Positions 27,601 to 56,897 of a stretch of DNA of 64,000 nucleotides are shown one piece after another; position 1 is the first letter of the stretch; the number at the start of each line of letters is the position of its first letter. Source of the DNA: Ectocarpus siliculosus. Lineage: Eukaryota; Sar; Phaeophyceae; Ectocarpales; Ectocarpaceae. The stretch lies in assembly GCA_000310025.1 (NCBI GenBank), contig FN649736.1, positions 3,287,331 to 3,351,330 of the forward strand, given 5' to 3'. The translations under genes were made by a program, and so were the position numbers. The notes beneath the pieces were generated by a model. The model did not search any database. It had not been told where the DNA came from and was given only the letters and a program-made list of their open reading frames with translations.

Positions 27601-28909
27601 CATCTTGCCAATATTCTCCCTTGTCCCCTAACCTAGATATAGTCTAGACAATCCAGATATGTTCACCGCCTTGGTTCTCCCGCAGAAGAGAAATGTATCC
27701 ACGGACATGCATGCTTCGCCCTTCACCCGTCAATACAGCACACGGAACCCACTGTTTTTTAGCTACCTGTCGGTAAAAGCTTCTCACTTGAGCCGTACGT
27801 GGGTGGTTGAAGGTAAACACGAACACGGGATACTGAATGAGGCCGCCGCCTGCTGGTGCCATACACCCACCAACGAGTGCGTCCACTATATTGAGCGAGC
27901 ACTAACGTCGATTCGGGTAAGGACAGCGTTAAACAGAACTCTCACGGCGGGCAATTTGTGTGGAGTGTACGCTTCACGGCAGCTACTGCTGTGCCATGCA
28001 GAGCTTTCATTCATACAGCAGTAGTAGACTCCAGCAATGGGAAACTGGTCTTCGACTCCTGTAGAGCCCGCCCTTCCTTCGAAATTCAACGAAAATCCGC
28101 CTAAATAGCGCAAATCAGAGGGAGGGCCATCGTTTCCCGTCTCGCCTCTTGAAAGTAAAAGCACCACGCCATTATTGTGTGCTGCTGCTGTGAATACACA
28201 CCGGCTGCTGGATATATTGCCGGGGAGATTTGTATGCATACGACAGAAGGAGGAAGGAGAGAAGGAGACAGCTTTCATCGAACGTCAGCGAAAAAAAGTC
28301 TTGGGAAAAATGAAAAATGGCGTAAACGTAAATCGCGGTCCGCAGCGGGGAAAATGCGCAGCAGCACAAGCAGGTCGAAAACGCGGACACAAGCAGGCCG
28401 AACACGCGGAGGTCATCAGCCCCCTAATGGCCTAAAGAGAGGTCGAACACGAGGAGTTCTTCCCCTCCCATACCTACCGGCATTACAGCGTAGCGCGTAC
28501 CACACGGCAGCAAGTGCAAACCAAAGGCACGATCCGTTGAAGTTCCATATTTTCAAAACATGTCGTACACATCTACAGCAGCAGTACCCACCTTCTTCGC
28601 AACCGGAGGAGCCGCCGCCGCAGCAGGAGCAGCCGCCGCCCCCTCCTCAATCTCTTCCCCTCTCATTATGGCGATCTTCCTCAAGAGTTCGTCCACGCCG
28701 CCGGACTCCAAGAGGGCTGCCCGGGCATCCTCGCGCTGCTGGAGAGCTTCTGCCGTCGGGTTCGCTCTTATCCTTGATTCCGGACGGGCGACGTTCCCCC
28801 CCCGCCCCCCGAGCGATGTCGCCGCGGGCACAATAACGAAGGCATTGTGGCCCCAGGGAAGGAGGGCCGCGGCGGCGAGGGAGAAAAGCGGAGTCATGGT
28901 TGTCTTCAT
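24602..28909 (-). CDS. probable plastid-targeted Ala/Pro/Lys-rich repeat protein
   Basis: The function is not recognised. Exon 1 (28909-28592) starts MKTTMTPLF, then a hydrophobic stretch and GHNAFVIVP. This looks like a heterokont bipartite plastid presequence, with Phe just after the expected signal-peptide cleavage. It continues into a charged helical part (EALQQREDARAALLESG, DELLRKIAIMRGEE) and an Ala-rich stretch ending PPVAKK. There the strong donor AAG|GTGGGT fits, in phase 0, an acceptor at 25049. Exon 2 (25048-24602) starts PEKKAPEPV and carries four or five imperfect PAPVEKKPAP-type repeats, then a very basic end (KKSRKQQKKKRGKKAKA). That gives 254 residues. The 3.5 kb intron is long and could hide further exons. 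The alternative is that exon 1 reads through to a TGA shortly after (VGTAAVDVYDMF) as a separate short protein. Composition on both sides of the junction supports the splice. Confidence 0.55.
26160..26480. repeat. hairpin H5 built from decayed EsV-1-7 repeats
   Basis: The left arm (26160-26335, +) and right arm (26480-26341, -) are diverged inverted copies that nearly abut. Read in coding sense, the left arm gives VKCKEEGMVNLNTKLC, YDGCEK and, in a second unit, GKEPGMVDVNAKL, interrupted by a stop. The right arm gives DGCEKADLI, KEEGLVNLNAKNCEYD after a frameshift. GMV(N/D)(L/V)..K.C...GC.K is the core of the Cys/His EsV-1-7 repeat first seen in Ectocarpus virus EsV-1 and abundant in Ectocarpus (for example in IMMEDIATE UPRIGHT). 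Both arms carry frame breaks. The hairpin lies inside an intron. Confidence 0.75.
26481..26745. repeat. hairpin H6, second EsV-1-7-derived inverted copy
   Basis: The arms at about 26481-26612 (+) and 26745-26620 (-) fold back almost without a loop. They share CTGTAGA.GCATA, GTCGCGA.GGTAATATCGAAAA, CTGAACACCAAGCTT and GATG.GAGAAA. The plus arm reads AKCKEDGMVNLNTKLCE then a stop. The minus arm has a VKHKEADM start and later frame breaks. It adjoins H5 and derives from the same repeat family, but includes a different flanking block, so the two hairpins are not simple copies of each other. Confidence 0.75.
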
Positions 28910-29303
28910 GGCTTCAACGAAGTGCGAGCATGCGTGTGGCTCGATATATGGAAGGATCGCCTCAAGATAAAAAAAAATCGTAGATCGGATGCGGGGAAAA
29001 AAAAAACGTAGATCGCACGCGGGGTATTGGGTTTTCGTAGAACGCACAGAGATTGATGGATTGATGGATCGATGGTTTCATGTTTGAATTCTCCCGCTGT
29101 TTTGCGCGCCGGAGGATGCGTTGGTCAACCAGCAACGACGAGAGAGCAAGAGAGGAAGCGGGAGAAAAGGGAGGCCTGGAGATAGACAGATTTAGTGAGC
29201 GACTACCGAGCGCAGATGAGTATCAGCGACGGCGCATGAGAGACGAGAGCGAGTGCGAGACTCTCGTGTCAACCGAGGTGAGACACACCCCGACAGCAGG
29301 ATC
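28910..29303. promoter_or_regulatory. divergent intergenic spacer, plastid protein / MYCBPAP-PGK
   Basis: 394 bp separate the two start codons. The spacer includes two similar A-rich blocks near 28967-29020 (each an A run followed by CGTAGATCG) and a short GATTGATGGATT-type repeat near 29050. No recognisable promoter element could be assigned. Confidence 0.35.
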
Positions 29304-32300
29304 ATGTCGTCGGTATCTCCGGTATCGAGCGTAGCTCCCGGCAGTAGCATCGCTCCCAGCGTGGGGAGCATCGAGCCCGCACCGACACGGAAGAAGCGGA
29401 CGATCGCTGTAGTTCGCAAGCGTGGGGACCGCCGCCTACCCGGCTCTAGCGAAGAGGAAAATGGTGGCGTGCCACCAACGTCGCCGAAGAAAAAGACGCT
29501 GTTGGTTGCGCGCCGACCTCGAGCGAGCGAGGGACGGCTGTTTGAGCACGAGGCAGCGCCGCATCGCCATGCAGCCGCACCCGGTACCATGCCCGGAGAC
29601 CGGGTGGTCGGGGGAGGGGCGTATGGTCACGGCGGCGGTCAGTTTCCTTCGTCGATGGTGGTAGGGAAGCTGCAGTGGCGCCCGGACGGACGCGTGCTCG
29701 ACAAGAGCGTGCTCGGCACAGCCGAGGCCTTCGAAGAGGTGAGTATATCAACACGGGTGTATCCACGGGCTGTAAGTAAAGACTTGACGCCAAACACCTT
29801 GTGAGAAGTGCATTGAGTGACAACTGGGGTTCTACTTTCCAAACAACAACCTTGACAGTTTTGCGAGTGCCGTGATCATTCATCTACATGTAGGCCGTGG
29901 TTTCGCGAGTTGCAGGCATGCATATCACGTGTGTGATTTTCAGGCGAGAAATTGTTACAGGTCTTTCTGCACTACCCATAGGCACAATCCATAGACTCTT
30001 GGAGGCTCTACCAACACCGTGCTATCCTACTGGTGTTGTTGCCCATTCGCGCAGATGGACGCCCAGCTGGGGTGGGTAGATCGCCCAGGAGGGGCAGAGG
30101 AGGACTCCTTGCACCCGCTGCAGGGAACGGATTCGTCCGTGGGCTCGTCGCCTAGCCTGAGGAGCAAGCAAAGTTTTCGGAGCCTGAGAAGCAAGCCAAG
30201 TTGTCGGAGCCTGAAGAACAGAGATCGTCAGCCCACCGGAGATCGCGGCGGGAACGGCCGAGGAAGGTTCGGTGAACATCCCCCCCCCAAAAAAAACATT
30301 TCCAAATGATCGTGTTGCCACCGGCGTATCTCTGCTGCGTTTAGCCATATAGGTGTCGCTGGAGCAAGCGTTCGTAGGGACTCAAACAGAGCAACAACAA
30401 GAACACATCGCTTGAAATACTATCTTGAAGGCGTCGGCAAAATCGCTATTTTGAAATAAGGACGATATATTGAGGGAACTATGCAACGTATTTATACAGC
30501 AAGGGTAGACGAGTCACAGGATCACCAACGAGTCGAGAGAAACCACAAGCAAATCTCTCGTGGTGTAAGTTTGATTGCACCGATCACCCCTCAATTCTTT
30601 TTGGTCTCGTAGGGCCCGAGTGCCTTAGTAGTCGGCCCTCCTTCTCGTGCGCTCGGCTCTACTACCAACAACAACACCGACCGCCCCACTATGTCTTTTG
30701 TCTAACTCCATCCTTCGTTGGCCTGTAAACAGAGCCGCCACCAGCATTACTGCGCTCAATGTACAATCCGCCTATGTAGCTGAATAATGGAACCTCTGTC
30801 TGTTTATCTACATGCTGCCACCTAAATAACAATAATCCGGAGTTTCTTGTCGTTTGTGCCCCGACTCTCGCCCCCCCGGCAGCCGCCCGGGGACATCTCC
30901 GGACGGTCAGTCGGCCCTGCAGGGAGAGATGGAGAGTTACATGCGCCGCATCTCGGAGGCGGAGGACACCGCGATAAGAAACAGGGCGGCAAGCGCGCGC
31001 AAGGTGAGTTGCGGTAGGCGTTGCTGTTGCTGCACCTTCGTAGGATGAAACCACACCGACCCTTCTGAACTGGTTGGCTCGTGGGTACGCCGAGCTAGTT
31101 CGTTCCATCAAGGCACCTTGGTCCGTTGCGCGGATAACCAACAGAATTTTCTGCACGGCCGATGCAATACATCCGAGATGGCAAAAGTGTGTATTTCTTT
31201 CCCAGTATATTCGTTTCTGTGCCCCCGTGAAGCCCCCTCCCGGATAGAATTAGTCCCTAAGATTCTTAGAACTTGTGGGTGTTTGATGAGTCGTCCTGCG
31301 GTGGGGGTTGGGGTCACGCTGGAGGTTACAGATCTCCTTGGTTTGATGGAACGCATCGAGGCCTAGTTTATTGTTTTACCATCGCCGACAGCGTCGGCTT
31401 GGGCTTGATTGGGCCTTCGTCATGGGTTTTGGCTCTTGGGTTGAGGGCGTCTGCCGTTCTTCATGTGCAAATTCGCTGTCGTTCGGGCAGGAAGCTAAGC
31501 TGATGGATCATGTCGGCCTGACGGAGAAGCTGACTATGCAACGCGAGGGAAACTCGATGCGGCAGTGGAAGCGCAGGCAGCGCGATTGGGACCGCGTGAG
31601 CCGGCACATGGCTGCCAAAACGGGGAAGGCAAGCAGCGGCAGAGCTAAACAGTAGTCGCTAGATATCTATTTGCCAAAACATTTGACCCTTTCGGACACC
31701 CCCAGTTCGGGCTCGACCATAGATCTACGCCCATGTCATACGAGAACACAACGTCGCCCCTGCAAGGACGCACGGATAAATCGTTTCTGTCAACTTTGGG
31801 CTGGTGGGGAGAGTGAGGGGTTGGCACCGATAGTTTAGGAAGAAGTACATACACTTTGTTCGGCATGTTCTTTTCACGAGGTGTATCTTGCGACGGCGAC
31901 TAGAAATAACTCCTGCGCGGTGTGCTTGTTAACTGCCAGGCGCCGGAAGACTTGGTGATGTCGACGGCGGACGAGTATCGCGAGAGAAGCGAGGAGTACC
32001 AGCTCATACACTCCGCCATCCCGACTTACGAAAAGTTCAGCAGCGACGGGTGAGAGAGGAAACAGCATGGAACACTAGTCGCGGTAGGCCACAGACCAAA
32101 CGCCGGTTCGAGCCAGACTTGGACCGCGACGAAGACCATTGAGCGTTGGCATGTTTCCTATTTGGCGGTCGTTGCTGAGGGGCAAGGGGAAGGGTTGATA
32201 GGGCCAACGGCTTCGACAACAGCGGTGCTGCCGTGAACATCGGCGGCAACGAGACGGTGATGAACTTGGCGCCGCCGAAGACATCGAAGAGCGGCAGTTC

Positions 32301-33212
32301 CAAGGAGAACTCGACAACGGCAACAGTGGCCTTCACGCGTTAACGTCCCTCACGCGTGAACGCGCTGTTCTCATTGCCTTGGTCTCCGTAGAGCTGTTGC
32401 TCCTCGTTGCCTTCGGCGGCGCCAAGTTCATCACCGTCTCGGCATTTCCGATAGTGTCGACCCAAGGGGCTCTTTGTCAGGAGAGAACTCCAGTGACGAC
32501 CCACACGCCACTTGTGGAGACTAAGCCAAACTCGAAGCGTTGGTGCCGATTCCACGCTTCAAACGTCGTTTTTTTGTTAAACTTCTGCCGACAACATAAT
32601 TGGAAGACGGCTGCACTGCGGCCCTCTTTTTACCATTCGCTTGGCCTGCAACAGCCTGGCTCTCGTGCTTTGTTCGTGGGGATATGTTTTCAGCGATGTA
32701 GGATGGCCCTGTTGAGTCACGGATCAAACAAGGACGAACACACGCACTAGGAAACCTCAACCAAGCCTCGTGGACCTACTGTCCCCTCCCCCTCATAGAA
32801 TAAACCAGATCCGCAGAGATCAGTACGGCAGTTGTCGGGCACTCGTGAGCTTCTTAGGTCTCTAAACTACTCCTGGAGAGACTGTTCCAACCCCAGCATT
32901 GTCTTACCACACACACCCTCCTTTCTACCCACGAAGGTACTGGATGATGTCGCTGAGGGGGTTCGGGGAGCGCAGCTGCAACGTCGGCAACATCTTCAGC
33001 GGGCTCACGTGCAGCATCAACGACCAGATGGCACCACCTCGCGCCGTCCGGAAGCCCACGGGCCGCCCCGCGGACGCGACGCGCAAGCGAACCTGGCGCA
33101 ATAGCGAGGCCCTCGCCGCCCGGAAGAGGGAGCTCGCGCCTGTCCTCAGGAGCCTGCGTCCACAGCAGTTCCAGCCCGATGAGACCGGCGGTGAGGCCGA
33201 GAGGCGGGGAGG

Positions 33213-33296
<84 letters not shown>

Positions 33297-36200
33297 GACC
33301 GAGGGATGGGGAGAACGCGAAGAAGGAGGGGGGGGATGAGAAGAGAAAGGAAACATTGGGGTCGGAGATTAGGAGGGAGGTTGAGCAAGCGAGAGGGAGA
33401 GAAAAACCGACAGAGGGGTGGGGAAAACGTGGGGAGGGAGGGGGAGGATGAGAAGATAGAAAGAGATAGATATTGGGGAGATCGTTCTTGTTGAAACCAT
33501 CGGAATGTCAGCTTGCTTGGACGTCTCCCAGTCTCGGGGCTGCCTGCCTGCCCCCAAGCCTTCCTGTTAAAGTGTCTACTGTATTGTGTACGGATGGTCC
33601 TGACTGCCTATTTGGGTTTTGGTACAGGGTTGGTCGTGCAAGGGGAGGATCTGTTGGAATGGGCCGCACAGTCCAGCCGGCAGTACTTCCAGCTGCGCCA
33701 CCTACAGGAGTCAGAGGTGTGTGTTTGTATGGTGTGTGTGTTTTTTCAAGTAGCATCGACCGCGCCATCAGTAGTCGATGGAAATAGGTCAGTCTCAGCT
33801 GGATAGTAAAACGCTAGAACACCATCTCAATCCGCGGACTTCCCTGACAGGAGGGGGTTCGGGGAACTGTCTCCGTGTTTCTTTTATTGCCATCGATCTC
33901 GTTAACAGGTTGACCAACGAAACGACGTCAGCCTTCGACGAATTGCAACACAAAGAACGCGTCCTAGTCTGTCCTGATTTGGTGTTCGATGTGCTGGCAG
34001 CCGTTCTTGATATATAGATCCCTCCGCTTGGGAACCCCTCATCGGCCTTGAAGGCAGAAGCCGTCCACAGGCCCTTTTAAGACCGTTCCCACCGCCGGCG
34101 CTTCCTGAGCTCTGACGGAGACTTTCCGCCCGCTTGTCGATTTTTTCCTTAAAAACCTCTGTCATCTTGCCGTCGCACGTTCCGGGCGGCGATAGGCCGT
34201 GATTACTGGGCTGAACTCGCTTGAGGCGGAATGCCACAGCACCGAGGCGGTGGAACACCTGCTGCTGCCGCTGGGAGGGACGAACGGCGACCGCGCCGAC
34301 GCGGGTTCGGTCTCGAGGTCTTCCCCTCGACCGGGGCCGGCGATGGAGGCGAGTGAGACAGTGTTCCGGGTTACGTTGTCTCTGCAAATCTTTGGTCCCC
34401 CGATCCTCTGCATCCTCGACGATTTCCCGCGGTGATCAACAGTGCGCTAGTCACTCTTCTGCCATCCTCGCCTACGCGTATCCCTCTTGTCCTTTCTAGG
34501 GATACCCTCTCGCCTCACGTGCATGGTGGTTTGTTGCTTTCGCCCCGTCCCGCCCCCGCCAACCGCTGTCGCGTCCGTTGGCCGCCGCCCCCCATGTTGT
34601 GCAGTCGTTCAATGGCGTACATTTTTCTTCTTTGTTCTGACTCACGGTTGTTTGTTTTTGCAGGTGATCTCCCCGTCTACGCTACTGATCGAGTCCAGCG
34701 CGGGGGCGACAGCCCTGAAGCAGGCCACGGTTACCGTTCGAAACACGGGCTCCACCGCGCTCTTCTTCTCTTGGTCGAGGGTTCCCAGGGGAGAGACCAT
34801 CGTTAGCACCAACGGATCCCCCGTTGGTGGCGGTGGAGAGGGTGTTCCAAGAGGATCGGACGCCGAGGCGGCGGGAGGAGGAGTGGAGACTGAGCAGAAT
34901 CGGGGGGTGACTTCGACCGCTAACGATAAGGCCGCTGCCGCCGCAGCAGCCAGGCATGCCGCGCTGCAGAACCCGGACGGTCGATTCTTCTGCTCCCAGG
35001 TACGTTCATGCGTGGGTAGGTGCAGTAACACCTTGTCTGCAAGCAAGTGTTTTTTTTTCTCTGGTGGAGTGCTGGTCGAAAAGATCTTGAGGTATCTCTT
35101 TCACCTTCCCGCAACCACGGTGATTTTGTGCCAAAAACCAATGGTTGGCACTTGTGTCGGCTAGGCGTCTGCCTTAGACGTGGGGGTGCTTTGATATCTG
35201 AGAAGCAACGCTCAAATCACCAGCTTTTTCAGTTGAATTTGAATATTTCGTTTTCGGTACGGGCGCTCTCGGGCCAAATCGAGTGCGACGGCCAACTCCC
35301 GGCGGTTGTGCGTCCGTAACAATGACATCCTGCATTACCAAGTAGCGTCCACAATATTTTTCCACTCCCATTACAGTTCCGCCACTATCATCGCTTTCAC
35401 ACAACGAATAGCCAGCATTCCTTGAACTCGGGGTGATCACAGAGCAGGATAATTGCGGGTGTGTGCGGTTTTCGAAGACAACTTTCCTGCAACTTTGATA
35501 GAAGCAAAATGAAGATTGGATGGCGGTGAGAACTTTTTGCTGTTGGCAATGTTGCTATTTAGCTGAGGATATTTGTTGTGAATCGCAGGCATGCTGTGAA
35601 AAACTCATTTCCTTTTCGGCAGACCCAAACCCCTCCTGATGTGAAATAAACGGCCGATCCTGCGTCGCCACCAACATCTCCGTCTCTCCCTTCACTCGAC
35701 GGACGTTGGACTTTCTTCCGATGGCCCGCATGTCTTACTCATGCTTTCTCACGGAAATCCCGTCGCCCTGCTCTTGTCGATATCCTCCTTTTTCCTTTCC
35801 GCATCCATCCACCCCTCACCCCACCAGTTCCCACCAACCCTCTGCTTCCGTCCCCGCCTTTCCCTCCCCCCACTGTTTCCAGTGCTCAGCGCACAAAATC
35901 TATCAGAATAAGCCCCCCACAGACGGCGGATAGGCTTACCGCTGCTACTTCCAACGCGTTAGAAGCGCAATACAACAGACAGGGAAACCACCAGCATTCC
36001 GGGTGTCTGTCCGAGTTCATTAAGGATTGCTTACAACCTTTCGGTACCCCCCCGGCCCCACGCCCCCCGCCCGCTCCACCGCTCCCCGACCTCACATCAC
36101 AGGCAACCGGAACATTACTGCCGGGCGAGACGGCGACGACCTCTTTTTCGTTCAAAAGCGCCGACCCAGGCATATTCAGCGACTGTTGGCGCCTTGAGAC

Positions 36201-39200
36201 TGCCCCGCCGGCTGCCTTTGTCTTGTCCGCACCGCCCCTACCGTTGCCGCCGCCGTTAACTACGGCGGCCGATTCCAAGAACGTCCTTCCGAACGACGAT
36301 CGAAATCTTGTTAGCCAAGCTCAACGGGCCGTCGAAAGCTCCGTCGTGGTTAACTCGGCAAAAACGAGTGACGGCGGCGATGCTGTTGCCGTTCGAGGTC
36401 GGAGTAACCAAGACGAAGGGAGGTACGGCGGTGGCGGTGGCGGTGACACGGCGACGGCTTCCAGGGTAACCGGAGGCTCGGTGGCGTCAACCGGCGGGGG
36501 GATTGAGGTGGGCTTGAGGGGGGTGGCCCTTGCGCCTGATACGCGGGGGCACGTGAGGAAGAAGCTGTCCCAGGGGGTGATGAGGGGCATTCTCGCGGCA
36601 AAGGTGGAGGAAATCGTGAGGGAGGTGGTCCGCGGTGTTCGCACTCCTGTCCGCGAAGAAGAGGTACGCATAGAGGCAGGCGCTTCCTTGCTTTGCTATG
36701 TTCGCACAAGCCATGTTCTGCTTCACCTTCACGACTCCTCTGTATTCCTGCCACGAGAAAACAAAAACATTAATCGACAGATCCGCAGGATCATAGCTCG
36801 TTCGCGGTATTTTTTTCTTTGTCTTCTTGTCGCCATAATTGTCTCCCCCCATTTCTCTCTCTTCTAGATACGCCGGCGACAACGGGAGGAGTTCCTCTCG
36901 ATCAACGCGGAGCAAGGCCTGTACTTCACTCCCCGAGTTTACGACGGTTTCATGCTGCTCCTGCAACGAGCCAAGGCAATCGCACTCGCGGCAGAGAGGG
37001 GGGACTACAACCCGGACATCAACAGTGGCGACGATACGCCTGGAACGCCTCACGGGGAGGTGGTTCCCGAGGAAGGCGATGACGGTGCAATACAAGGCCT
37101 CGACGACGCTATTCTAGCAGGCGCAACGACAACACCAACCGCCGAGGGCAGCAACGATCACGGTCCCGAGAAGAAGGGGGGGCAGGATGGCAACAGCGGC
37201 GGCGGAGGAAACGAAGACGGGGAGCGTTCGGAATGCTCGACACGCCCGGCAAGCGCTCTGTCATCGAGCGAAGGCGGCGACGACGATGGCAGCGGTAGCA
37301 ACGACGGGCAAGACAACGAGGACGACGACGAAGGGGGAAAGGGTGAAGCGAAGGACCCGAGCCACGGGAGCAACGCCGGCGACGTCACGGTCGAGCCGAC
37401 GGGGGTAGAAGGCCAAGGAAAATCGGCAATGGCGGGAGCAGAGGAAGGAGAGCGGGGAGTAGAGCAAGAGGTGGGAAGGGACGAAGATGGCACGACGAAA
37501 GCATTCGCTGAGAAGGACGGCGGTAGTGGTGGTGGTAGTGGCGGTGGAGAAGACCAAGCGAGTGCGGAAAGCCTTCTTCGCGGTATGCTCGAGAGGCTGG
37601 ACTGCGGAGAGTGGGACGGTGACGTGAATACCGTCCTAGACGCCATCGACGGCCTGACCAGATGGATTCCGGTTCCGCCGCCGCCGCCGCCGCCGCCGCC
37701 GTCCGCTGGAATGGACGAAAATGATGGAGTGCCTGCCACTCCCGGAGCAGAAGACTTGGCGGACCCGGATGCAGATGGCACTCGGCGAGGCGATAGAGAT
37801 GACGAAAGAATGAGTGCGGCTTCTGAGGACGGAGATGATGCAGATGATGACGACGACGAAGAAGAGGAAGAAGAGGAGGAAGAAGAGGAAGATGAAGAAG
37901 AAGAGGACGAGGAGGGAGACGAGGACGATGTCGGCGACGATGAGGAGGAGGGGCCGCAGCACCCCGTGTTCGCGGAGCAAAGGGCCCTGACAGCGCAGTG
38001 GCGCCGCCTCGTGCTGGATGCACAGCTCGAGCCAGAGACGGACGAGTGCCTCGAGCTCATGCGCGAGACGGTCGGGAACATGGTCGCGGGTATCCCCGGC
38101 GCGATGGAACGGGCTCGCCGAGACTCCGCGCTGGTGGCGGGGGGGAAATCAGCGGCAGGTGGAAAATCAGCAGCAGTAGCAGCAACAGCAGCAGATTTGA
38201 AAACGCCGCGAGGAGGCGTTCTGGGATTCGACGAGGTGAGTTAACATTCGCTTCGTTAAACCAAGGAGGGTTATAGAGGGTACCCAAAAGGGTACTGTTT
38301 CATCGAGGGGTCTGTGATCATTTGTTGTCGGTGACGTCATGGTGTAGACCGGCGTCACAACGCGCGTGGCCAAGCACAATGACCTGCCGTCGTATATTTC
38401 GGAACTTTTGCTCTGGGGGTCGGATACCCTTGTTGTACCTGGCGTCGGCACGTTGAGGTAGAAGAAAAAGTTGTCATGTCAAAAATAAAATAACGGGGGA
38501 TAGGGTTAGGGATAATGTACAAGACGTGAATTTCAATAAACCCTTTAGCGGCTCATGGTTTCGCCAGAACATTACAACCCTTCGCTGTCAACAGTCGTCT
38601 GTAGCGTTTTTATCGCCTACTCCCCCTACTCGGAGAGCATACACACCGACCCTCGTTCTTGATTCACCTGTTACAACTCTAGGACTCGATCGCGAACTGG
38701 GCCGCGGCGTGCCCGGGCGACGTATCCACACGTGAAACCGACGCCAGAGAGGGCGGACCGCAGGCGCGCGCGGCAGCAGCGGCGAAGGCCGGCAACCCCA
38801 AGGCCAGTTTCCTGGCCCTAGCGTACGGCGAGGTGTCTTCCCGAGTCGCCGCCGCCGCCGAGAGCTTCGAGACCAGTTTGTCCGAAGGCGAAGGTGCGCG
38901 CAGGGAGGTCGTGGCTGCTGCCCGCCGAGCCGCTGTGCTAGAGGGGCCCGACGGTCTTCTGAGCGGGAGAGATGCGGCCGCCCGCAGCGGCGATGGTACC
39001 GGCGGCAGCCGCGGCGGTGCCAGCAGGGGAGACAGCCGTGGTCCGAGATCACCATCACCATCACCACCACCGCCACCGCTCTCTCGGCTGGGCGCTCTCA
39101 AGTGGGAAGATGTAGAGGGTAGACGTATTCTCTTGCACGTTGATCTCTCGAAGGGGGTGACGCCGGAAGATGGCACTTACGGGGGTAGCCTCGGCGGGGG

Positions 39201-42200
39201 GGGTGGCGATGGTATAGGTCACGATGGTACGGACGGCGGCACTGGTCAACAGGAGTTTCCGAAACAGGTGCGGTTGGTGGCAGAACAGGTGCGGGAAGTG
39301 CTGTCGGCAAAGCCCGCTGCTGTGGCAATTGTGTCCGAGATGGCTCCGCCTGCTCTCGCCACTGCCGTCGCCCCCGCGACCGCCACCCTCAACATCAATA
39401 ACTCAGAGGATGTCGACAAGCAGAAAAATTCTTCCCAGAGCCAACCATTGGCGGGACCAGAAACGCAACAACAAGAACAACAACCGTCAGCACAGCACCC
39501 TCCCGCCGGTGATCCAACAGCCGCTCAAACGTTGTCGTCGAGTCCCGAGTCTGGCTCCCTCCGTGCCTCCGCCGCCGCGGTGTCGAGTCTTCTCGGCATG
39601 GAAGTCGACTTCTATGACACCGTGCCGGAGCTAGCAGCGGCGCTGGAGCGGTGTGCAGCAGCAGGAGGAAGAGGAGGAGGAGGTTTACCAGGCGCCGGTG
39701 GCGGGGATGATGTCGGGGCCGGGTCGGACGGCTTGCCGCCGTTCGGGATGGTGCCGCTGATGATGGCCGAGAGGCTGAGCTTACCGGGAGTTGTACCGGC
39801 CCCGCCGGTGGATGAACCCGAGCTCAGCGACGGCGAGGAGGAGCGGCTCCCGGACTTCTCGTGGGAAGGCGAAGGTAGGATTAAGAGCGCGATTACGGGA
39901 GGGAGCCCGGGACGGCTTCTCTTCAGCCCTTGTTTGAGGTGCCCCGTGGTGTGTGTTTTTTCTCTGGTTGTAGAGGAGGGTGGGGGTTCCTATACCATCG
40001 CTTTTAGTGTAGGTCTGGGCCGGGGCGGGGGTGTTCTACGTATCTGCGGGAAAGACAGAGGGGGTTGAGAGATGGGTTGATACGCGCGTATTCATTTTTT
40101 CCGTCTATGTGCCTCGGAATTCGTTTTTGAGAGTTCTCGCTTCGTTCGTTGACAAGCGAAGAATGGTGTTGCTGAGGTCACCCAACTCTCTCTCTCTATC
40201 TATCTATCTATCTCTCTCTCGCCCAACCCAAAAACACGAATATTGACACGGGCACATACGCACCTGCGCCTGGGGTTTGCAAAGTCCAACGCACACCGAA
40301 AGGGACTGCAAGAAACTTGAAGCCAAAAACCGGAAATCCATTTTTGAAAATACGAAATCCCGTCACAACACTGAAACACGAACCAACTCAGAGGCTGAAG
40401 CGGCCGCCGAACACGCCAAGGAGATCGAAGCAGCGCGTCTGAAGGTACAGGGTCCCGGGGAAGGAGACCTCGGTGAGCTCCTAGCCGGCGTGGTGGATGT
40501 GGCGGTGATGGACGCGCCGAGAGCGTTGTACGAGCCGCGCCGGAAGCTGCCTTGGGGTCCGGTGCCTACGACCGGTCTCACCGTTGCTGGGTCAGGTAAG
40601 AGGACCACGGACGGTGGTGCAGGAACCGCTTAATCCTGTTTTTTTTTTTTTGCGTTTTTGCGAGAATCTGGACGATTAAAAAATTATTTTGGCCGCCCTG
40701 CCCCGGCAGCAAGGCAGACGTAGAATCTTACCGCTCACGTTCGGTTGACTGATTCGGCAGTTTGCGAACAATTTACATATTTTGGACAACAGCCTAACTT
40801 ATGCCACGAGAACAGCCGATTAGCTACGCATTGGCTGAACCAAACAAGAACTCCCCCTCCCCAATGCACGCTCTGACAAACAACACCCGAATGTGGACGT
40901 GTCCCTGTCTTCCTTCCCTTCGCACAACAAAACCGACCCGTCATTATCTGTTCCTCCTCGTCGTCCTCTACCTCCTTGGACAAAAATGCAGGTGTTCACG
41001 GAGATATAACCGCCATGGCGTACCTTACCGAGGCCTCGGACAGGCCTCTTCTGGCAGTAGTCGGCGGAGGTAGCCTCGAACCGCGGCTGAAGCTCATCGA
41101 CGGCCTCCTGGACCTGGTCGACACTCTCGCAATAGGAGGCGGGTTAGCCGCCACCTTCGTCGCGGCTTCGTCGACTGAGGCAGCAACGGCAAGTGGGTGG
41201 AAGGAGGAGGGTGCGGTAGATGCCAGCGGCAGCAGCGGCAACAATACCCAAAGGTTCGTACCCCGTAGGCCGCATCGGTAATTTAGCACCGGGACTCTTT
41301 TCTCGTGAGAACACCTGTAACGCCGTCTACCGCCATACGTTTGGTACCCCTGTCGGCGGCACCGCCCCCTTGCCGCCGAACTCGACGAAGCGTCTATTCC
41401 CTGCCGCAGGTCTTGGTTCTGAGTAAGAGTGGGGCAGGATGGAGTAAGTTTTGTACCACGGTTTGTGCAGCCGAGACGAAGTGCGATAGCCCCGGCGCCC
41501 GCAAGGGCCGATGTGGAGTATGCGGGGTACAGCGTGGGGGGAGAATGGAGTAAACATCTTCTCTGGCGAGACAAAGGGGGATAGGGGATGTAAGAAATCT
41601 CCTTGTGGGCTTCGAAAATCCGCGCGGTTTGGGTTCCTTTTTGTTGGGAGGGGGGTTCTCTTGCGAGAGGTGTATATGACCGCACTACGACTATGAGATA
41701 GCACTACCGCCTCATCTTGCACAGCGCTTTCTCGCCGAATACTTCGGAAGTGAGGAGCAGATTCAGGAGCCGTGTTTCGGCGTGACGCATGACCAGTCCA
41801 AGCACCACCCGCTTGAACAAGCACTGCTTCTCTGACGAATTTTCTTGCGGCAGCACCGCGGAAGCGCAAGAAGCAGAGGCAGCAGCGGATGCAAGAAAAC
41901 GGCCAAAGGCCAGGAAGAATAGATGGACTGGCAAGGGCACGGCGGGGAAGCCTCGCGATCCCCTCGATGTGGTAGAGGCGGCGAGGAGACTCTTGGTCAA
42001 GGCCCGAAAACGAGGGGTAGAGGTAGGACGAAGCTAAAAACAATCGTTGTGGTTGTTTCATTCACTTCAAGTCGAAAACACCTTCCTTACCCACCACCCC
42101 TGCCACCCAGTTGAACAAGGACGGGGTGCGCACGATAGCGTAGGTATCGTTACGATCTCTGGTGTTGTGCGTTGCGCGGTTGCATACGGTGGAGCGAATC

Positions 42201-45200
42201 ATCCTGGAGAATCGTGAACGACGTCAAGTGACTATGTTTAGCAGTGACTATTTTGTCATTTGAGTTTTCTTTTACAACTACATTGCGTTGTGGCATTTGA
42301 CGTGTGTACCAGGTTATTCTTCCGTCGGATTTCGTGGTTGGTGACATCGAGGTAGATGAAAACGGGCCCCTGCCGGGACAATTCCTTTCTGGAGACGCAG
42401 GCCCGGACAACGACGACGAAGACAACGACAACAACGACAACGGCAACGATAGTACCGCTGGCAGCGTTGCACCAGGCGGCGAAGGTGCGGGTGCCGACGG
42501 GGTTACGGACGTGGCGGCCCTGGACGTGGAGCCGGAAGACGCGGCCATGGGATTCGAGTACGAGGGCGAGGTAAACACGAAGAAGCCGATCGTACGCATG
42601 CATCACCTGCGACCGCTTGTGAACATTGAGTCAAAGAGATCGACTCAATACCAATCGTGCCCCCTTCAATCGATGAAGACATGGAACGAAAGGGGTGTGC
42701 TTTCATTGAACAGCCGGAACCAAAACTTGGAGTATGCAGTCGCAACGAAAACTGAACAATACACGGGAGGAGACATAGAATAGGCAGAGCGCTTGTTTAC
42801 TTTCGTTTGGAGCTCTCGGAATGTGTGAGCGCGCCGCGATGTTGTGGTTAGGATCCATTCGTTAGGTGCTGCAGGTGGTGTATTCTTGCTTGTACGGTTT
42901 GCTGGTCGGCCCAACGATTCCACCTACCGTAAAAGTGTTAAGTTGTGTAAATACCCGGTTCAATGGTTGTCCAGCCGTGGTAATTGATGAGTACATAGGG
43001 AGTGCTATTTACCACCCTAGAGTTGTCGACCCACGCTAACCAACAGCACCTTTCTCTCCTCGCTCTCCCGCGTCTTTTTGCTTCTGCCCTGACGTACTCA
43101 CCACAGAATCAGACGCTCCGCCTGACAGTCTTGAAATGAACACGTTCTGTGTAGTCCAACAACGTGCGAGGCAGATGTCAAAACATGTCCCCCGCCCCTG
43201 CTAGGACATGAAATATATGGAATGTCAGTAGTATTGACATGAGGCGGACATCCAGGTAACACCCCTTACCCCTCCTTTTTCGCCCACTCCCCGCACCCCT
43301 CTCCCAACTACGGCCTCGCCTTTGCACTTGGACTCGACGTGACACGGCCGGTGCTCTACGACAGACCATGGATGTTTCACTCGAAGACGGCATTCCCAAG
43401 GGTTTCCACCCCATGGATGTCGGGCCCCAGACAACCGCTGCTTTCCGGGTATGTGTGCATGTTTATCATGAGACCGTGTGTATGCTCATGTGTGCATGCT
43501 CACTCCACAACGTTTGTTTTTCGTTCCGCTAGGGTAAACGATGACCGGCTGCTACTGTAATGTGTAGATGTTCTTCGTCTGAGGGAGGGTCTCGAATTTA
43601 TGTCTGCCTCCACTCTCGCTGACATGTAAGCAGTGGACACGACAGGTTCGCTGTGTTGGTCTCTCCTTCTGAGTGCATTCGTCGTGGGACAATTGGACCG
43701 ATGTGTTCATCTACTCGGCACTTCTCTTTCGTCAAGTTGCCATCGCCTCTGCCCTCTCCGAACGCTGCATATCGACCCCCGGAGGAACCTCTTCCTCGAC
43801 CACGGGCGGACAAGCCGAATCAACAATCCTGATGCCCTCCTTTCAGTCAAGGCTGCCTAAAACCCGAGCAGCCGGTCGCTCTCCCTCTCCAACGTTGTAC
43901 CCACCAGCCAGCTCGCGCGGTAGTGTGAAGGTCTAGCCCTAGATACTTCGCAGCCAAGATGAAAGCACAACTAGACGCAGGAGCAACTCGAACCAGCAAA
44001 GTGTGCGGTGGTGGAGCAAAAGGAAAGACGTTTTACACGAGGCCAGCCGTACACTCCACCTCATCCGACAAGACTCTCAATATCCCCGACCCGCCTCAAA
44101 ACAGTCGAACTCCCAAAAATGCTTCGCCCTGACAACGTACTTTTTTGTGCAACCTGCAGGACGCCGTCGGCCGCGCGCGAGCGGTGCTCTGGCATGGCAT
44201 GCTCGGTGTGGCGGAGTGCTCGGCCTTCCAGTTCGGGACGAGGGACGTGTTGGAGGCCGCAATATCTGCCCACGACAACGACGAGATGCGGGAGGCGGGG
44301 ACGTCACCGGTCGTGATCTTGTGCGGGAGGTAAGACGCAATGACGAGCGCTGTAAGGAACGAGGGACGGGAGGGCGAAAAGGGGGGCGGTGGAGAGAGAG
44401 GTTCCCCATGTCAACCAACAACACTTAGGCATCGGGCTACGGAACGAGCAATCCTAATAAAACTGTAATCGGATGGAGTCCGGGTTGGAATCTCACAGTC
44501 TCATGGAAGATCGGCCCAAATTGTGTCGGTACGTATTCTCGAGACCGTAAGGGTCTGGGACATACCGTTCATTTTGCGACGTTCGACGCATCTGTACCCA
44601 TTTCTGTCTGTCTGTCTCTCTGCCAGTCTGTCTCTCTCTCTCTCCCCCTCGCCGACACCCTCTCCCCATCCCTAATCACCCCACCCCCAACCCCAACCCG
44701 CGCGCCTCATCAACGATCTCGAACCATTTTCTTTGTTCTTATACCCCGCGAACAGGTCTCTCGGAGAATGGGCCGGCCGCTTCGCTGAGGGGGACGAGGG
44801 CGACGGCGACGATGTTCCTCCCCTGGGGTCGGGGTCGGGCGTGTCTCACGTAAGGATATCTCCTGCATCGCCATTTTGAGTTTCACGGGGCGGAGAGAGC
44901 CTTTCGTCAACTTGTTCCAAAGTGGAAATGTTGATGGCAACCTACGGTCGTACCTTGAAACACTTGGGCTCCCCATTCCATTCCTTGCCCTTGAGCATGT
45001 TGAGGCGGTTCCTTTTCTGCCCTACGTTGCGTGAGTGCGCTGGTTTTTAGAACGGTAGCAATCAATAACTCCGGGCGAGGGCAAAAGGGTGTCGTCCCGA
45101 TCTTCATGCCGCTGCGACAGTGGCACTCATCATCAGAGGTTTGTACAGGGCATGGACCAAGCCACACTTCCCGCAACCAATCTGTTGTTGTCGTTGCTGG

Positions 45201-46431
45201 TGCTGGTGCTGGTGCTGGTGCTGGTGTTGTTGTTGTTGTTGTTGTTGTCGTTTCGACGGCACCACCACCGTATTCGCATCGCGGTGTTTGATTGGTTGCT
45301 GTTCCTGTTATTTGCGGCTCCGCACAGCGGTTTCGCTCTCTGCGACCTTCCACCGCCGTCATACAATCCCCATCCACAACACCACCCCGTGTGACGATGA
45401 CGGCAGATATGCACAGATCCCGTGTTGTGTTCGAGGGTGCTGGAGGGAAGGATAGTTCCAGGGCTGTCGCAGCTGAGCGAAAGGGACCCGCCCCCGGGAG
45501 ACGCAAACCTCGGCAACGTAAGAAGGCCGCCGATGAATACTCCGAAGTGTTGACGAAAATTCGTGCCCTCAGACCAGTAGTAGTATGGCGACCTCTGTTT
45601 GTAAACAATCGAAATGGAGGAGGTCCGCCCCATGCGGCACTTACTTCGCTTCTATTTTGCGCAGTTGGCCGAGGAAACAGCCTGAGTGGTGGTGGGGATT
45701 TTCCCGATTATAATCTCCCCCGAGGCTCTCACCCTGTGGTTGCGTGGAGAGGGAAGGATTATTTGATGTCGCCCAGGTTTTTTGCACCGGAGTTTGCCCC
45801 CGTCAATATTACACGCTGCTGTAGCGTGGGAGCAAGCTACATTGGTCTACTGTGCTGTCTTTTCGCGATGAGAAAAAAACGTCGCATTTTTCTATCGTTC
45901 ACCGTTTGGAACAATAACCAACAGTTCAACCTGTGTATGGCGACGGTGGCAATAATGTAGAGCTCCGTCGCGGGCCATTCGACACGCTGCTACCCGCCCC
46001 AGCGCCCGGTCCATTCGTTTGGAGCAGAAATGATACCCTCGTGATAGTGCAACCAGACATCTCAACCTCAACCGCCCCTTCCTGGCCGTGCTCCTATATG
46101 CTTCCTTGCCACCACCTCGTACCTATAGTCGTCGGTCCGAAAACGAACATATGTAGCATGCTCTCGGTATCTGCGCGCCGCCGCCGGATTCCGCTCGTTC
46201 CCTCTCGCATCCCGTTCTCGCCAAGCACGAAAAGGTTGCTGCCATCAACTTGTTCTACCTCGCGGCTTCTCAGTCGCGGGAGTATTCAAAGTCTCGCTAA
46301 TCCCCCTGTTCCGCCAACTGCGTGTTCGGTTGCCATCATCGCAGGTGTTGAGGAGAGGACCGTTCGGGGAAGAAGATGAGGACGACGACGACGAGGATGG
46401 GAGTACCGATGCGGGCTCCTCCAGTTCTTGA
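29304..46431 (+). CDS. MYCBPAP-like protein fused to a degenerate PGK-like domain, 21 exons
   Basis: Exons: 29304-29738, 30055-30266, 30883-31003, 31491-31628, 31940-32049, 32937-33190, 33628-33716, 34196-34369 (least certain), 34664-34999, 36103-36663, 36868-38235, 38683-39874, 40392-40595, 40992-41253, 41854-42022, 42313-42570, 43365-43448, 44160-44329, 44756-44849, 45407-45517, 46345-46431. All phases agree, giving about 2,142 residues. The N-terminal about 215 residues are low complexity. Residues about 216-870 match MYCBPAP ([40 protein letters not shown], an ASH-like [36 protein letters not shown]). MYCBPAP belongs to the central apparatus of motile cilia, which fits flagellate spores. 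A Pro/acidic linker follows. Residues about 1405-2114 follow PGK in order but have lost its catalytic residues. Exon 4 ends in a GC donor, and the exon 6 acceptor is AAG. Confidence 0.88.
32225..32460. repeat. inverted duplication H7 inside an intron
   Basis: The left arm (32225-32338, +) and right arm (32460-32348, -) meet with a loop of about 10 bp. They share GAGACGGTGATGAACTTGGC, then GCCGCCGAAG, and TTCACGCGT. Both arms encode [10 protein letters not shown]. This sits in intron 5 of the MYCBPAP-PGK gene. An acceptor-like TAG precedes the left arm, but no donor in it has the phase needed for the next exon, whereas exon 5 joins exon 6 directly in phase, so I treat it as intronic. Confidence 0.75.
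33213..33293 (+). repeat. GA microsatellite
   Basis: About 80 bp of nearly pure (GA)n, just after the donor of MYCBPAP-PGK exon 6. Arg/Glu dipeptide frames across it are artefacts. Confidence 0.97.
37676..37945 (+). other. Pro run and acidic tract within exon 11 of MYCBPAP-PGK
   Basis: An in-frame (CCG)n run encodes about ten prolines near 37676-37705. A GAA/GAG/GAT tract at about 37835-37945 encodes some 35 consecutive acidic residues with few breaks. These belong to the long linker between the MYCBPAP-like and PGK-like parts. Confidence 0.85.
39097..45517 (+). other. PGK-like domain of the fusion protein, catalytic residues lost
   Basis: This region follows the order of phosphoglycerate kinase, split over exons 12-20. 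[12 protein letters not shown] corresponds to the PGK first strand (normally followed by F-N-V-P, here LSKG). [22 protein letters not shown] and [12 protein letters not shown] correspond to the GGAK and IGGGMA..F region. [18 protein letters not shown] then VILPSDFVV match the helix-strand before the VDF motif, [15 protein letters not shown] matches the D-I-G-P-x-T loop, [10 protein letters not shown] matches V-W-N-G-P-x-G-V, and [14 protein letters not shown] matches the C-terminal L-E-G-x-x-L-P-G. Missing are the FNVP Asn, the HLGRP block, both Lys of GGAKxxDK, the WNGP Asn and Pro, and the STGGGA loop (here CTDPVL). It is therefore expected to be a non-catalytic scaffold. Several acidic or Gly-rich insertions enlarge it. 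Confidence 0.85.
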
Positions 46432-47878: not shown

Positions 47879-50373
47879 ATGCCTTCCATGAAGTCCGCTG
47901 TTGTGGCTGGTGCCTTCGCCGCCGGCGCCCAGGCCTTCGTGGCCCCGAGGTAAGAGCCCTCGCCCTTGAGGATGGTTGACACGCGACACGCGACCAACTA
48001 CAGAGAAAATCGTGGTTGAATGATGAGTGCGTGTTGGAATGCGTGGGAGGATGATGGATTGTTCAACGATGATGGGATGGATGACGGCGAGCCATGTGCC
48101 GATCGATGAAGGAACAGGTTGGTTGTGCTACGCGCGCGGCTGGCTGTGCCACCGTCACTGGCTTGCGTTTGTCTTCTGCACGTCCCCTCCGTAGTTTGAA
48201 CAGCGATCTTGGCGCCAAGTGGCTCCTCTCTCCAGACCAAAGCGGGAACAAAATTAAATGCGCCGCGTTTGTCTCGGCTTGCCCCAGGGCTCCCTGCCTG
48301 CTCGCGGCATTGCATCGCTCAGCTATTTAGCGAAGCACAAGTTGGAACCGGCGCGTGAGCGTATCGACTGCTACCCTGGTCACGTGCATATGAGCGCTTC
48401 ATTACGTGTGCCGGGCTGGCAACTGCTGTTGTCCACCACCTCTTGACAATGGTCTGTAGCCTTCTAGAAGTAATGTATGCGCATGTATGTACAGCAGCAG
48501 ACAACAACGTGTGGTAGACTTGAAAGTTGCATGCGCATGTTGTGATCTATGCTACAACGATGTACCCTGTTCCAGCGGCAAACCCAACTGCCACCAATCC
48601 CTCACTCTCAGCTTCGCGTTACCTGACACATCACCACGGGCATGCAGAGCCTGCTATTGCTATTTACCGCTGAGCGCAATGTTGTTGACACCAAGCTAGC
48701 TCCTGCTAGAACTGAGAGGGTACGCTGTCATCGCCAAGTTTGTTGCTTGGTGTTGTTGCTTGGGGAACCTTGCTCTTGGGTGTAGATGGCCAACCTGCGT
48801 ACCTTGTGTTAGAGGGAGGGAGCGCGACAGCCTCTTTCTTTGTGTACACACGCATAGATGGGTAGATAGGTGAACTCTAAAGCGCCATGAAACGTCTCGG
48901 AAAACATAGACATACCCCGACAGAGAACGTAGGGCGAGGCAGGGTTACGCTGATCCGTGTGTGGTGCTGCCTCAACATACATCTGAGACTCTTTCACGCT
49001 TTCATGCACATTTTTTCTTGTCCTTTCTCGAACCGCTGATGTTCAATCAGCAGAGTGTGGGGGGTTCTTGGCTCTCTTTGTGGCTATGGACGGTCGTGTT
49101 TGGTATTACTACATGAGCATCAAAGTTATAGATGCCCGTGGTGCGTAGATTCACATTTCCTTCGTATCTTCTTCTCTGTTGCACCATGAGGAAAAAAACC
49201 GGTTGCACACTTGTAGTTTCAAATGTGATGACGTGTCCCTTCCGTTGGATTGGCGAAATTTTTGGAGCTGGCTCTCTGTTCTCTTGTTCTTTGGAAGCCC
49301 TCACGTGTGTGCACCTGACCTGTGTGCATGTCCAGTATCAAATCAACACAACCGGCCGTACGTGCCACAAGCTTTTCCCCAACAAGCTGTACTTGATGCA
49401 CAGACATGAATTCTACAAATACATACCAGTACTTTGTGTGAGTTCTGTACACCCAGTCGAACAAAACAAGTCTGAGCGCGTTTTTTTTTGCGTAGTGCCG
49501 CTCGTGGCCCGAGATAATGTTTTTTCACAACCGAAGCAGGGGTTCCCAGCAGTCGCAACCAACTCGTCATCCCTGTCCGGCCAGGACCACGAATTACGTG
49601 CCACATCGGGATTTTTTCGTGACTTCCGACTGTTTTTTTTTTTTCTCTGCGCTCTGTTCGTTTTTTTTTTTGTGTCACCGCAGTATGAAGTCGGTCAGTA
49701 CACGCCTTTTTTGAGCAAAATAGTTCCTGTAACTGACCGGTTGCTTACACCCCCCTCCCCCCCTGGCCTCTACCCCAGCGCCTTCAACGGTGCCGCCCTC
49801 ACCACCGCGGCCAAGTCGTCCTCGGCCATGAAGATGTCCTTCGAGTCCGAGATCGGCGCGCAGCCCCCCCTCGGATTCTGGGACCCGCTCGGCCTCCTCG
49901 AGGACGCGGACCAGGAGCGGTTCGAGCGCCTCCGCTACGTGGAGGTGAAGCACGGCCGCATTGCTATGCTCGCCATCGCCGGCCACCTGACCCAGCAGAA
50001 CACCCGCCTCCCCGGCATGCTCTCCAACTCGGCCAACCTGTCCTTCGCCGACATGCCCAACGGTGTGGCCGCCCTCTCCAAGATCCCCCCGGCGGGCCTC
50101 GCCCAGATCTTCGCGTTCATCGGCTTCCTCGAGCTGGCCGTGATGAAGAACGTGGAGGGCTCCTTCCCCGGTGACTTCACCCTCGGCGGCAACCCCTTCG
50201 GGTCCTCGTGGGACGCCATGTCCGAGGAGACCCAGGCCTCCAAGCGCGCGATCGAGCTCAACAACGGCCGCGCCGCGCAGATGGGCATCCTCGCCCTCAT
50301 GGTGCACGAGGAGCTCAACAACAAGCCGTACGTCATCAACGACCTCCTCGGCGCGGGCTACACCTTCAACTAA
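47879..50373 (+). CDS. LHCF: fucoxanthin chlorophyll a/c-binding protein (LHCF type)
   Basis: A light-harvesting antenna protein of the plastid thylakoid that binds chlorophyll a/c and fucoxanthin. Exon 1 (47879-47949) encodes MPSMKSAVVAGAFAAG and AQAFVAP, a signal peptide plus the ASAFAP-like motif typical of heterokont plastid targeting. Exon 2 (49779-50373) joins after a 1.83 kb intron with the codon AG|C, giving 221 residues. Helix 1 carries the chlorophyll-binding E..HGR (YVEVKHGRIAML; Glu79, His82, Arg84). Helix 3 carries E..NGR (IELNNGRAAQMG; Glu183, Asn186, Arg188). Helix 2 lies in IFAFIGFLELAVM. LGFWDPLGL before helix 1 is the usual N-terminal signature. The length and single intron after the presequence fit the family. 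Codon use is strongly C/G-ending, as in a highly expressed gene. Confidence 0.95.
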
Positions 50374-56000: not shown

Positions 56001-56897
56001 GGCACCGAGAGGGGGGCGGAAGAGGCGGGGGCAGGAACTGGAAAGGCTGAAGGACCAAGCGGAGGAATATCGGCCACAGGCGTTAGCCTCGTACTCTCGG
56101 GGAACCACGGGCCGGATCACGTGGAGTGCACCACTGGTAGGCTACCCCTCGATACTGTTGCTGCAGCTGTGGTCCAAGGCAAGTCTGAAAATGGAACCGG
56201 AACAGCCCCCGATCTCGAATCCGGCACAAACAAGGCACAAGCTAAAGGTCCGACAGCGGTGCCGGCGACACAGTCAAATCAGCCTCCAGCACCCACCGCG
56301 GGGTTCACCAGTAGGGCTAGCAAGGACCGCGGAGAACGGCGGCTGCGAAGAAGACGAAAGCGGGTCGCCGCCCGTGCTGCAGCGGCGTATCTTGTGTCTG
56401 CCGCGGACACTTCTTTGCCCAAAGACACTGCTGACGATGCCCTTACTGCTGGTGGTGGGACTTTCGGCGTCCTGAGCGAGGAGGAAGCACAGGCTCTTGC
56501 GGCGCTTGGAAGGGGGGCTCCGAGCGATGCCCGTCTGCTGCTTTTGGCATCCTCGCCGTCCCCAGCGCGGGACGGTCGGCAGCAGCGTCAACTTGAGCCG
56601 TCATCACGGGCCTACCAAGGCTTAGTGTTGCACGGGGAGAGCGAGCAAACGGCCGAAGTACAACGTGATGGCTTCGAGATCGGTGACTATCATGGCAACG
56701 GAGACGTTGGTGATGATTACGTTCTCGGCATTGGGGGCGTGAGCGGCGGCGGCACCACCACCAGTAATAGCACCAAGCGCGGGGGATATTTGGAAGAGGT
56801 GTTGGACAGCGCCATGGACAAGCTCGCCAGGGAGATCCAAGCCGAGGAGGACTTGTCGCGTCGGCGACTGGGGATGACCCCAGTGCCATCATGGTGA
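53060..56897 (+). CDS. coiled-coil protein of unknown function, 4 exons
   Basis: Not recognised. Exons: 53060-53263, 53820-53999, 54337-54996, 55443-56897. All junctions are phase 0, giving 832 residues. The first intron uses a GC donor (CAG|GCAAGA); the others are GT-AG. The N-terminal about 60 residues are basic and Thr/Ser/Arg-rich. Residues about 62-190 are predicted helical (TIEALQEESRALHQ, LDGLESALWEAHGREARA, ERAALEADLQRRRERLEEAC). Further helical segments lie near 310-345 (LKEATRVMREIEELEARDK) and 355-420 (LEKATLLQKQAQAKEVQA, LRRALESLGAEELRLL). After that come long Gly/Ser/acidic low-complexity stretches, a basic cluster (RRLRRRRKRVAARAAAA) and a final helix (YLEEVLDSAMDKLAREIQAE). The architecture suits a structural or cytoskeleton-associated protein. 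It converges with the glycosyltransferase gene. Confidence 0.7.

Follow-up and report, generated by a model that had tools for sequence, protein, structure and literature searches.

Does a brown alga build into the central apparatus of its flagella a glycolytic enzyme that can no longer work as one? This is the question raised by a gene on the plus strand of a 64,000-nucleotide stretch of the Ectocarpus siliculosus genome (hereafter, the window), which runs from position 29304 to position 46431 and which we have resolved into 20 exons encoding 2098 amino acids, with continuous phases and a single stop codon at the end. The first half of the predicted protein resembles Chlamydomonas FAP147 and mammalian MYCBPAP, the second half phosphoglycerate kinase (PGK). 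We consider it probable, while leaving room for doubt, that this one gene is the alga's only MYCBPAP/FAP147 and that it carries a dead PGK fold as a non-catalytic module of the C2a projection. What glycolytic enzymes, and dead relatives of such enzymes, are doing in flagella is still a puzzle. A pseudo-PGK covalently attached to what appears to be the sole FAP147 would come with a likely address, namely the C2a projection, and the choice between a structural and a metabolic role would become testable.

As concerns the first half, a search of the spliced protein against Pfam-A finds the MYCBPAP family (PF14646) at an E value of 1.6e-40 (139.9 bits, against a cut-off of 24.5) in three stretches, the best of which covers residues 274-549. 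Over the whole protein and up to an E value of 1, the same search returns four families, namely MYCBPAP, PGK, Cep192_D7 and KORA, the last two below their own cut-offs (0.1, over the LLPGET block, and 0.38, respectively). When residues 1-853 are compared with the PDB, again up to an E value of 1, only two distinct sequences are found, and these are FAP147 of Chlamydomonas (7n61 and 7som; 5.2e-21) and the MYCBP-associated protein (9ijj; 5.8e-10), which bears out the MYCBPAP signatures that the first-pass annotation had pointed to. Two conserved blocks, of 12 and 27 residues, lie inside the parts aligned with FAP147, and both that annotation and we have labelled them ASH-like. In terms of exons, the gene opens with exon 1 (29304-29738), which holds the start codon and encodes an N-terminus without any family match (residues 1-145), followed in the model by exons 2 (30055-30266, with the donor AAG/gttcgg) and 3 (30883-31003). 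The MYCBPAP homology begins in exon 4 (31491-31628) and continues through exons 5 (31940-32049), 6 (32937-33190), 7 (33628-33716) and 8 (34196-34348), through exon 9 (34664-34999), where a conserved 21-residue block accompanies homology seen in both Pfam and the PDB, and through exon 10 (36103-36663), which contains the block running from LLPGET to FSFKS. It ends within exon 11 (36868-38235), which then passes into a long low-complexity linker with a strongly acidic run (37 of the 50 residues at 1121-1170 are aspartate or glutamate). The linker itself (residues 764-1484) gives 28 matches in the PDB, all at E values of 0.085 or above; a match of the acidic run to CFAP65, at an E value of 5, we take to be due to chance.

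The PGK family (PF00162) is found in the second half at 1.4e-27 (97.1 bits, against a cut-off of 27), with the best stretch at residues 1682-1879. Both families that had been proposed for the protein model, PF14646 and PF00162, are found in it, including the PGK match, whose absence had been held to speak against a fusion. In the PDB, residues 1392-2080 match 46 distinct sequences up to an E value of 1, every one of them named phosphoglycerate kinase (best value 2.8e-20), while NCBIfam returns a PGK/TIM model at 1.7e-25, which is far below that model's own cut-off, together with one chance match. Using a profile made from 20 prokaryotic PGKs, the 419 C-terminal residues (1680-2098) score 91.6 bits in three colinear stretches, against 5.0 bits for the best of 600 shuffled sequences (300 for each of two regions). 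What, however, of the N-terminal lobe? In the ordinary profile search, residues 1260-1680 score -1.1 bits, and the lobe is thus not significant by this measure. Since low-complexity inserts break up exon 12, we scored this region as a chain of segments instead, matching ordered, ungapped segments to the first 145 positions of the profile. By this test, residues 1390-1656 reach a score of 36.2, compared with a mean of 15.0 for shuffled sequences (standard deviation 3.2), and none of 200 shuffles comes up to it; the reversed sequence scores 11.2 and four other parts of the fusion protein between 11.2 and 15.9. The chain consists of six segments, arranged as in the enzyme, of which the fourth and the sixth are low in complexity and look like chance. 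At the opposite end of the domain, the GGGDT and STGGGA loops are unrecognisable, with 146 of 200 shuffles matching or beating the chain score there. In other words, the alignments trace a predicted PGK fold from about residue 1402 to about residue 2017, and at the level of sequence its C-terminal lobe is clear. The claim that all main PGK motifs follow in order consequently stands for the C-terminal lobe, has the support of only the chain test for the N-terminal lobe, and finds none for the GGGDT/STGGGA block.

These parts are spread over nine exons. Exon 12 (38683-39874) encodes linker sequence and then the degenerate N-terminal lobe (residues 1402-1585, approximately) with its low-complexity inserts, and exon 13 (40392-40595) the region between the lobes. 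The C-terminal lobe occupies exons 14 (40992-41253), 15 (41854-42022) and 16 (42313-42570), the latter two with an insert each; there is a 17-residue PGK block in exon 17 (43365-43448) and a 12-residue block in exon 18 (44160-44329) at the position of WNGPxGVFE in the enzymes. Exon 19 (44756-44849) is where the GGGDT loop would be expected, and exon 20 (46345-46431), without a PGK signal of its own, supplies an acidic end and the stop codon.

Could this PGK half still be an enzyme? An alignment of 10 prokaryotic PGKs gives 43 invariant columns, and at these the fused PGK, for which four motif pairs of the N-terminal lobe were placed by hand, keeps 17 residues, changes 7 and leaves 19 unaligned. 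The seven changes are R19H, R36Q, H59E, H145Y, E170D, K193S and F313A, to which one can add, as read from the printed alignments, K197R, N307H and P309M at nearly invariant positions; Lys193 and Lys197 correspond to Ser1752 and Arg1756, both in exon 14. Asp21 and Glu314 are among the residues kept, and Arg146 is counted as kept even though the stretch around it holds a gap. By matching motifs, we take Arg36, His59, Lys197 and Glu314 to be the equivalents of Arg39, His62, Lys219 and Glu345 of Trypanosoma brucei, and the remaining active-site residues have roles in substrate or ATP binding. The four T. brucei residues are described as binding substrate or ATP in the passages available of a study of a PGK-like protein of that organism (PMC4106842). 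The genome itself provides a comparison: read exon by exon, its five other PGK loci keep 14, 14, 14, 14 and 13 of 15 key residues. Position 343, a threonine in the reference, differs in all five (C, S, Q, S and S), and one locus has a lysine at 342, in a low-scoring segment. Arg36, His59, Lys193, Lys197, Asn307 and Pro309 are kept in five of five; in the fused PGK all six are changed. Because six active-site residues are altered here while the other five loci retain every one of them, the PGK half is, on the evidence of its residues, a pseudoenzyme that is predicted to be catalytically dead, and the conservation of substrate and ATP residues that marks an active PGK is missing from it. An earlier statement that the nucleotide- and substrate-binding residues are lost therefore holds for these six, but not for Glu314 of the ATP site.

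That said, the retained Glu314 and Asp21 may permit weak binding of a ligand, which counts against a purely inert domain, and on this ground one can argue that the PGK half still binds nucleotide or phosphoglycerate and serves flagellar beating as a sensor of metabolites. With the six residues just listed changed and the glycine loops unrecognisable, we regard such a sensor as very unlikely.

Does the chain represent one gene or two? The two halves are linked by intron 11 (38236-38682), a phase 0 intron of 447 bases. Its donor, GAG/gtgagt, scores 11.6 (by a matrix built on the gene's 18 remaining donors), ranks first among the 90 GT sites in 36868-38800, and is equalled by 0.1% of GT sites in the window; its acceptor ranks second among the 64 AG sites in 38236-39200, with 5.8% of AG sites in the window scoring as high. 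What is more, the first in-frame methionine of exon 12 is residue 1479, which lies beyond strand 1 of the PGK fold, and the acceptor itself forms an in-frame TAG. With no earlier methionine and this stop, a separate PGK gene would need an upstream exon. Five ATGs occur in intron 11, and two of them precede phase 0 GT sites; we tried these as starts of a separate gene and rejected them, as the sites score only -9.5 to -0.4 compared with 11.6 for the donor of the intron.

Four features of the gene structure weigh against a single spliced product. Namely, intron 11 contains two AATAAA motifs, at 38484 and 38535, where about 0.1 would be expected from a plus-strand total of 15 in the 64 kb (a test made after the motifs had been sighted); if exon 11 is left unspliced, a stop codon follows two codons further on; some acceptors score poorly (-6.8 for intron 12, -1.6 for intron 7 and 0.6 for intron 15); and two introns require GC donors. 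The first two features fit a pair of neighbouring genes, in which a MYCBPAP gene is polyadenylated in intron 11 and a separate PGK-like gene, or a decayed PGK, begins near exon 12. This we find unlikely, given that exon 11 stops precisely at the top-ranked donor, that this donor is paired with a high-ranking acceptor, both in phase 0, that exon 12 has no credible start of its own, and that both domains occur within one Tetrahymena protein. The same motifs within a strong intron, together with the nearby stop, make a MYCBPAP-only product beside the full one possible, i.e. one gene with two products, whose intronic polyadenylation would make the PGK module optional. Introns 5, 9 and 18, however, also contain one AATAAA apiece, so that the motif is not special to intron 11, and we rate this arrangement as quite improbable. 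On three grounds, namely the splice sites, the absence of a plausible start for a gene of its own in the PGK half, and the Tetrahymena precedent, we thus predict a fusion in one polypeptide, as read from one phase-consistent gene model. Of the fusion as originally put forward, the two homologies in one such chain remain in place, while the two AATAAA motifs in intron 11 still tell against it.

The model was built on the plus strand between 28500 and 47400 by joining open stretches at GT-AG or GC-AG sites in continuous phase, with exon borders picked by eye under the guidance of frame and homology. The start at 29304 and the end at 46431, already given in the first-pass annotation, have been kept, as has the single phase-consistent chain on one strand, but the rebuilt protein has 2098 residues and not the 2142 proposed. 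Of the 19 introns, 17 have GT donors and two (introns 4 and 8, following exons 4 and 8) have GC donors; all 19 have AG acceptors. The two GC donors, along with the low-complexity inserts, could be taken as signs of a pseudogene or of an artefact of assembly, yet the 2098 codons run without an internal stop or frameshift, the GC content at third codon positions is 0.70 in the MYCBPAP half and 0.67 in the PGK half, exons have a GC content of 0.64 compared with 0.52 in introns, and the gene is free of N. We accordingly hold a pseudogene or artefact to be extremely unlikely. In particular, the only N run of the window, 100 N at 22330-22429 and presumably a scaffold gap, lies outside the gene, and consequently the two halves were not joined across such a gap.

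The genome (189 Mb in 492 contigs) was searched for exon-wise matches. PF14646 gives a single match, which is exon 10 of the fusion gene, and all six matches of a 358-residue MYCBPAP query fall within the same gene. Since no second MYCBPAP gene was found in the 189 Mb by the exon-wise profile or the protein query, the fusion gene is probably the alga's FAP147 and apparently the single MYCBPAP copy of the genome. It must be set against this that only one of the gene's own MYCBPAP exons is recovered by PF14646, and that a divergent second copy could escape in the same way. PGK, on the other hand, gives 35 matches, which group into one exon of the fusion gene and the five other loci, one each on contigs C6 and C457, two on C26 and one further along C11. 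Queried with 311 residues of the fused PGK, the genome yields six matches, five in the fusion gene and one at the C6 locus (33% identity over 55 residues, E value 3.1e-4). On 198 C-terminal columns, the fused PGK forms a very long branch beside a haloarchaeal PGK (support 0.80), a kinship that we reject as long-branch attraction. Its identity to the 15 PGKs compared is 26-34% in every case, whereas identities among the five other algal PGKs range from 53 to 85%, and the fused PGK is therefore no recent copy of them. The two PGK loci on C26, which lie about 26 kb apart and are 85% identical on the C-terminal columns they share, perhaps represent a fairly recent local duplication. An E. coli PGK query had no match on viral contigs.

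The architecture had been thought possibly undescribed. It is not new: one precedent has been published, in a ciliate. Namely, the relevant part of a 2020 review (PMC7729029) credits Tetrahymena thermophila with a pair of PGK genes, of which the first is canonical and the second, TTHERM_00856750, is multidomain with MYCBPAP-related sequence. The parallel with our predicted fusion protein, which we draw from the published description only, is that MYCBPAP-family and PGK parts stand in one protein while a canonical PGK gene lies elsewhere; the same part of the review takes the ciliate protein to be an enzyme that may moonlight, with roles in the nucleus. Among the matches listed, we found no further account of the combination in the open-licence literature, and the available main text of a survey of stramenopile PGK isoforms (PMC5715807) does not contain MYCBP. 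FAP147 and mammalian MYCBPAP share with the window protein the MYCBPAP domain with ASH-like blocks but, unlike it, their PDB chains give no match to a PGK profile up to an E value of 10. A PGK hidden in either was sought with a profile of 10 sequences and discarded, as the 48 PDB sequences found comprise 47 PGKs and RepX (E value 0.74).

Another relative in kind is PGKL of T. brucei (Tb927.11.2380), described in the available sections of its paper (PMC4106842) as a PGK-like protein that associates with the axoneme and in which catalytic residues are lost. It resembles the window protein in being a dead PGK, and for PGKL the axonemal site is known. In PGKL, however, the PGK part is N-terminal and is followed by cyclic-nucleotide-binding and helix-turn-helix (HTH) regions, neither of which appears in the window protein in Pfam-A up to an E value of 1, and the main text of the PGKL paper, in the part available, does not mention MYCBP. 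Central-apparatus proteins with built-in nucleotide-kinase domains are also on record, i.e. CPC1/SPEF2 and FAP42 of C1b, and HYDIN (PMC9113940, PMC12297659, relevant passages); their domains are adenylate or guanylate kinases and not PGK, and they belong to other parts of the apparatus. New here are the occurrence in a stramenopile, the loss of residues from the active site, what appears to be a single copy, and the proposed link to C2a.

How might such a protein work? In Chlamydomonas, the C2a arm has FAP147 as its rachis (PMC9113940 and PMC13345628, in the parts concerned); FAP147 organises FAP65 and FAP70 there, and crosses the wall of the C2 microtubule to reach a protein of the lumen (PMC9113940, same part). 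By analogy, the MYCBPAP half would form the rachis of C2a in the alga's central pair, and the long linker with its acidic run would hold the PGK fold at a distance from the C2 microtubule. The fold itself would then be a non-catalytic structural or docking module, i.e. a spacer or a partner-binding surface within C2a or toward the radial spokes, and would not be a local source of ATP. With no second MYCBPAP found, every C2a rachis of the alga would bear the module, unless the motifs in intron 11 yield shorter forms. Negatively charged surfaces toward the radial spokes, and electrostatic repulsion, have been discussed for the C1a and C1b arms (PMC9113940, passage on these arms). Were such charge-based spacing to apply to C2a as well, a role in spacing or docking would suit both the acidic linker and a domain that is bulky and inert. 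Two considerations weigh against this placement: we infer the C2a location of the fusion protein from homology only, and in mouse sperm, according to the part of PMC13345628 that deals with it, C2a proteins are placed differently. As for possible partners, an Ig family typical of HYDIN and CFAP65 has six matches in the genome but also occurs in 4 of 14 prokaryotic controls, which lends weak support to their presence; the adenylate-kinase family of HYDIN has no match in the genome but none in the controls either, and is thus uninformative.

Together with the Tetrahymena case, the fusion may mark a piece of central-apparatus history in the SAR group. One can go further and suggest, as a tentative idea that we hold to be possible but not the likelier outcome, that stramenopiles and alveolates have a pseudo-PGK built into their C2a rachis from ancient times. 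The fusion would then be older than the divergence of brown algae from ciliates, its PGK fold would have become a piece of the central apparatus with a purely architectural function, and animals and green algae would lack the fold or have lost it.

Finally, some minor features of the window may be added. Intron 6 contains a long run of AG dinucleotides (33218-33291, plus strand). Immediately upstream of the fusion gene lies a divergent open frame on the minus strand (28553-29077), with a signal-like start and an NAFVIVP motif recognised by eye; no Pfam family matches this frame, whose product is possibly a small plastid-targeted protein. Further downstream, on the plus strand, two long open frames at 54127-56897 are rich in low complexity and, by eye, coiled-coil-like, with no Pfam family. 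Between them and the fusion gene, at 49132-50373 and likewise on the plus strand, lies a gene, as fits an alga that bears fucoxanthin, for a fucoxanthin chlorophyll a/c-binding protein (PF00504, 5.2e-36), whose best PDB match is chain FCP17 of 9ygv (4.6e-123).

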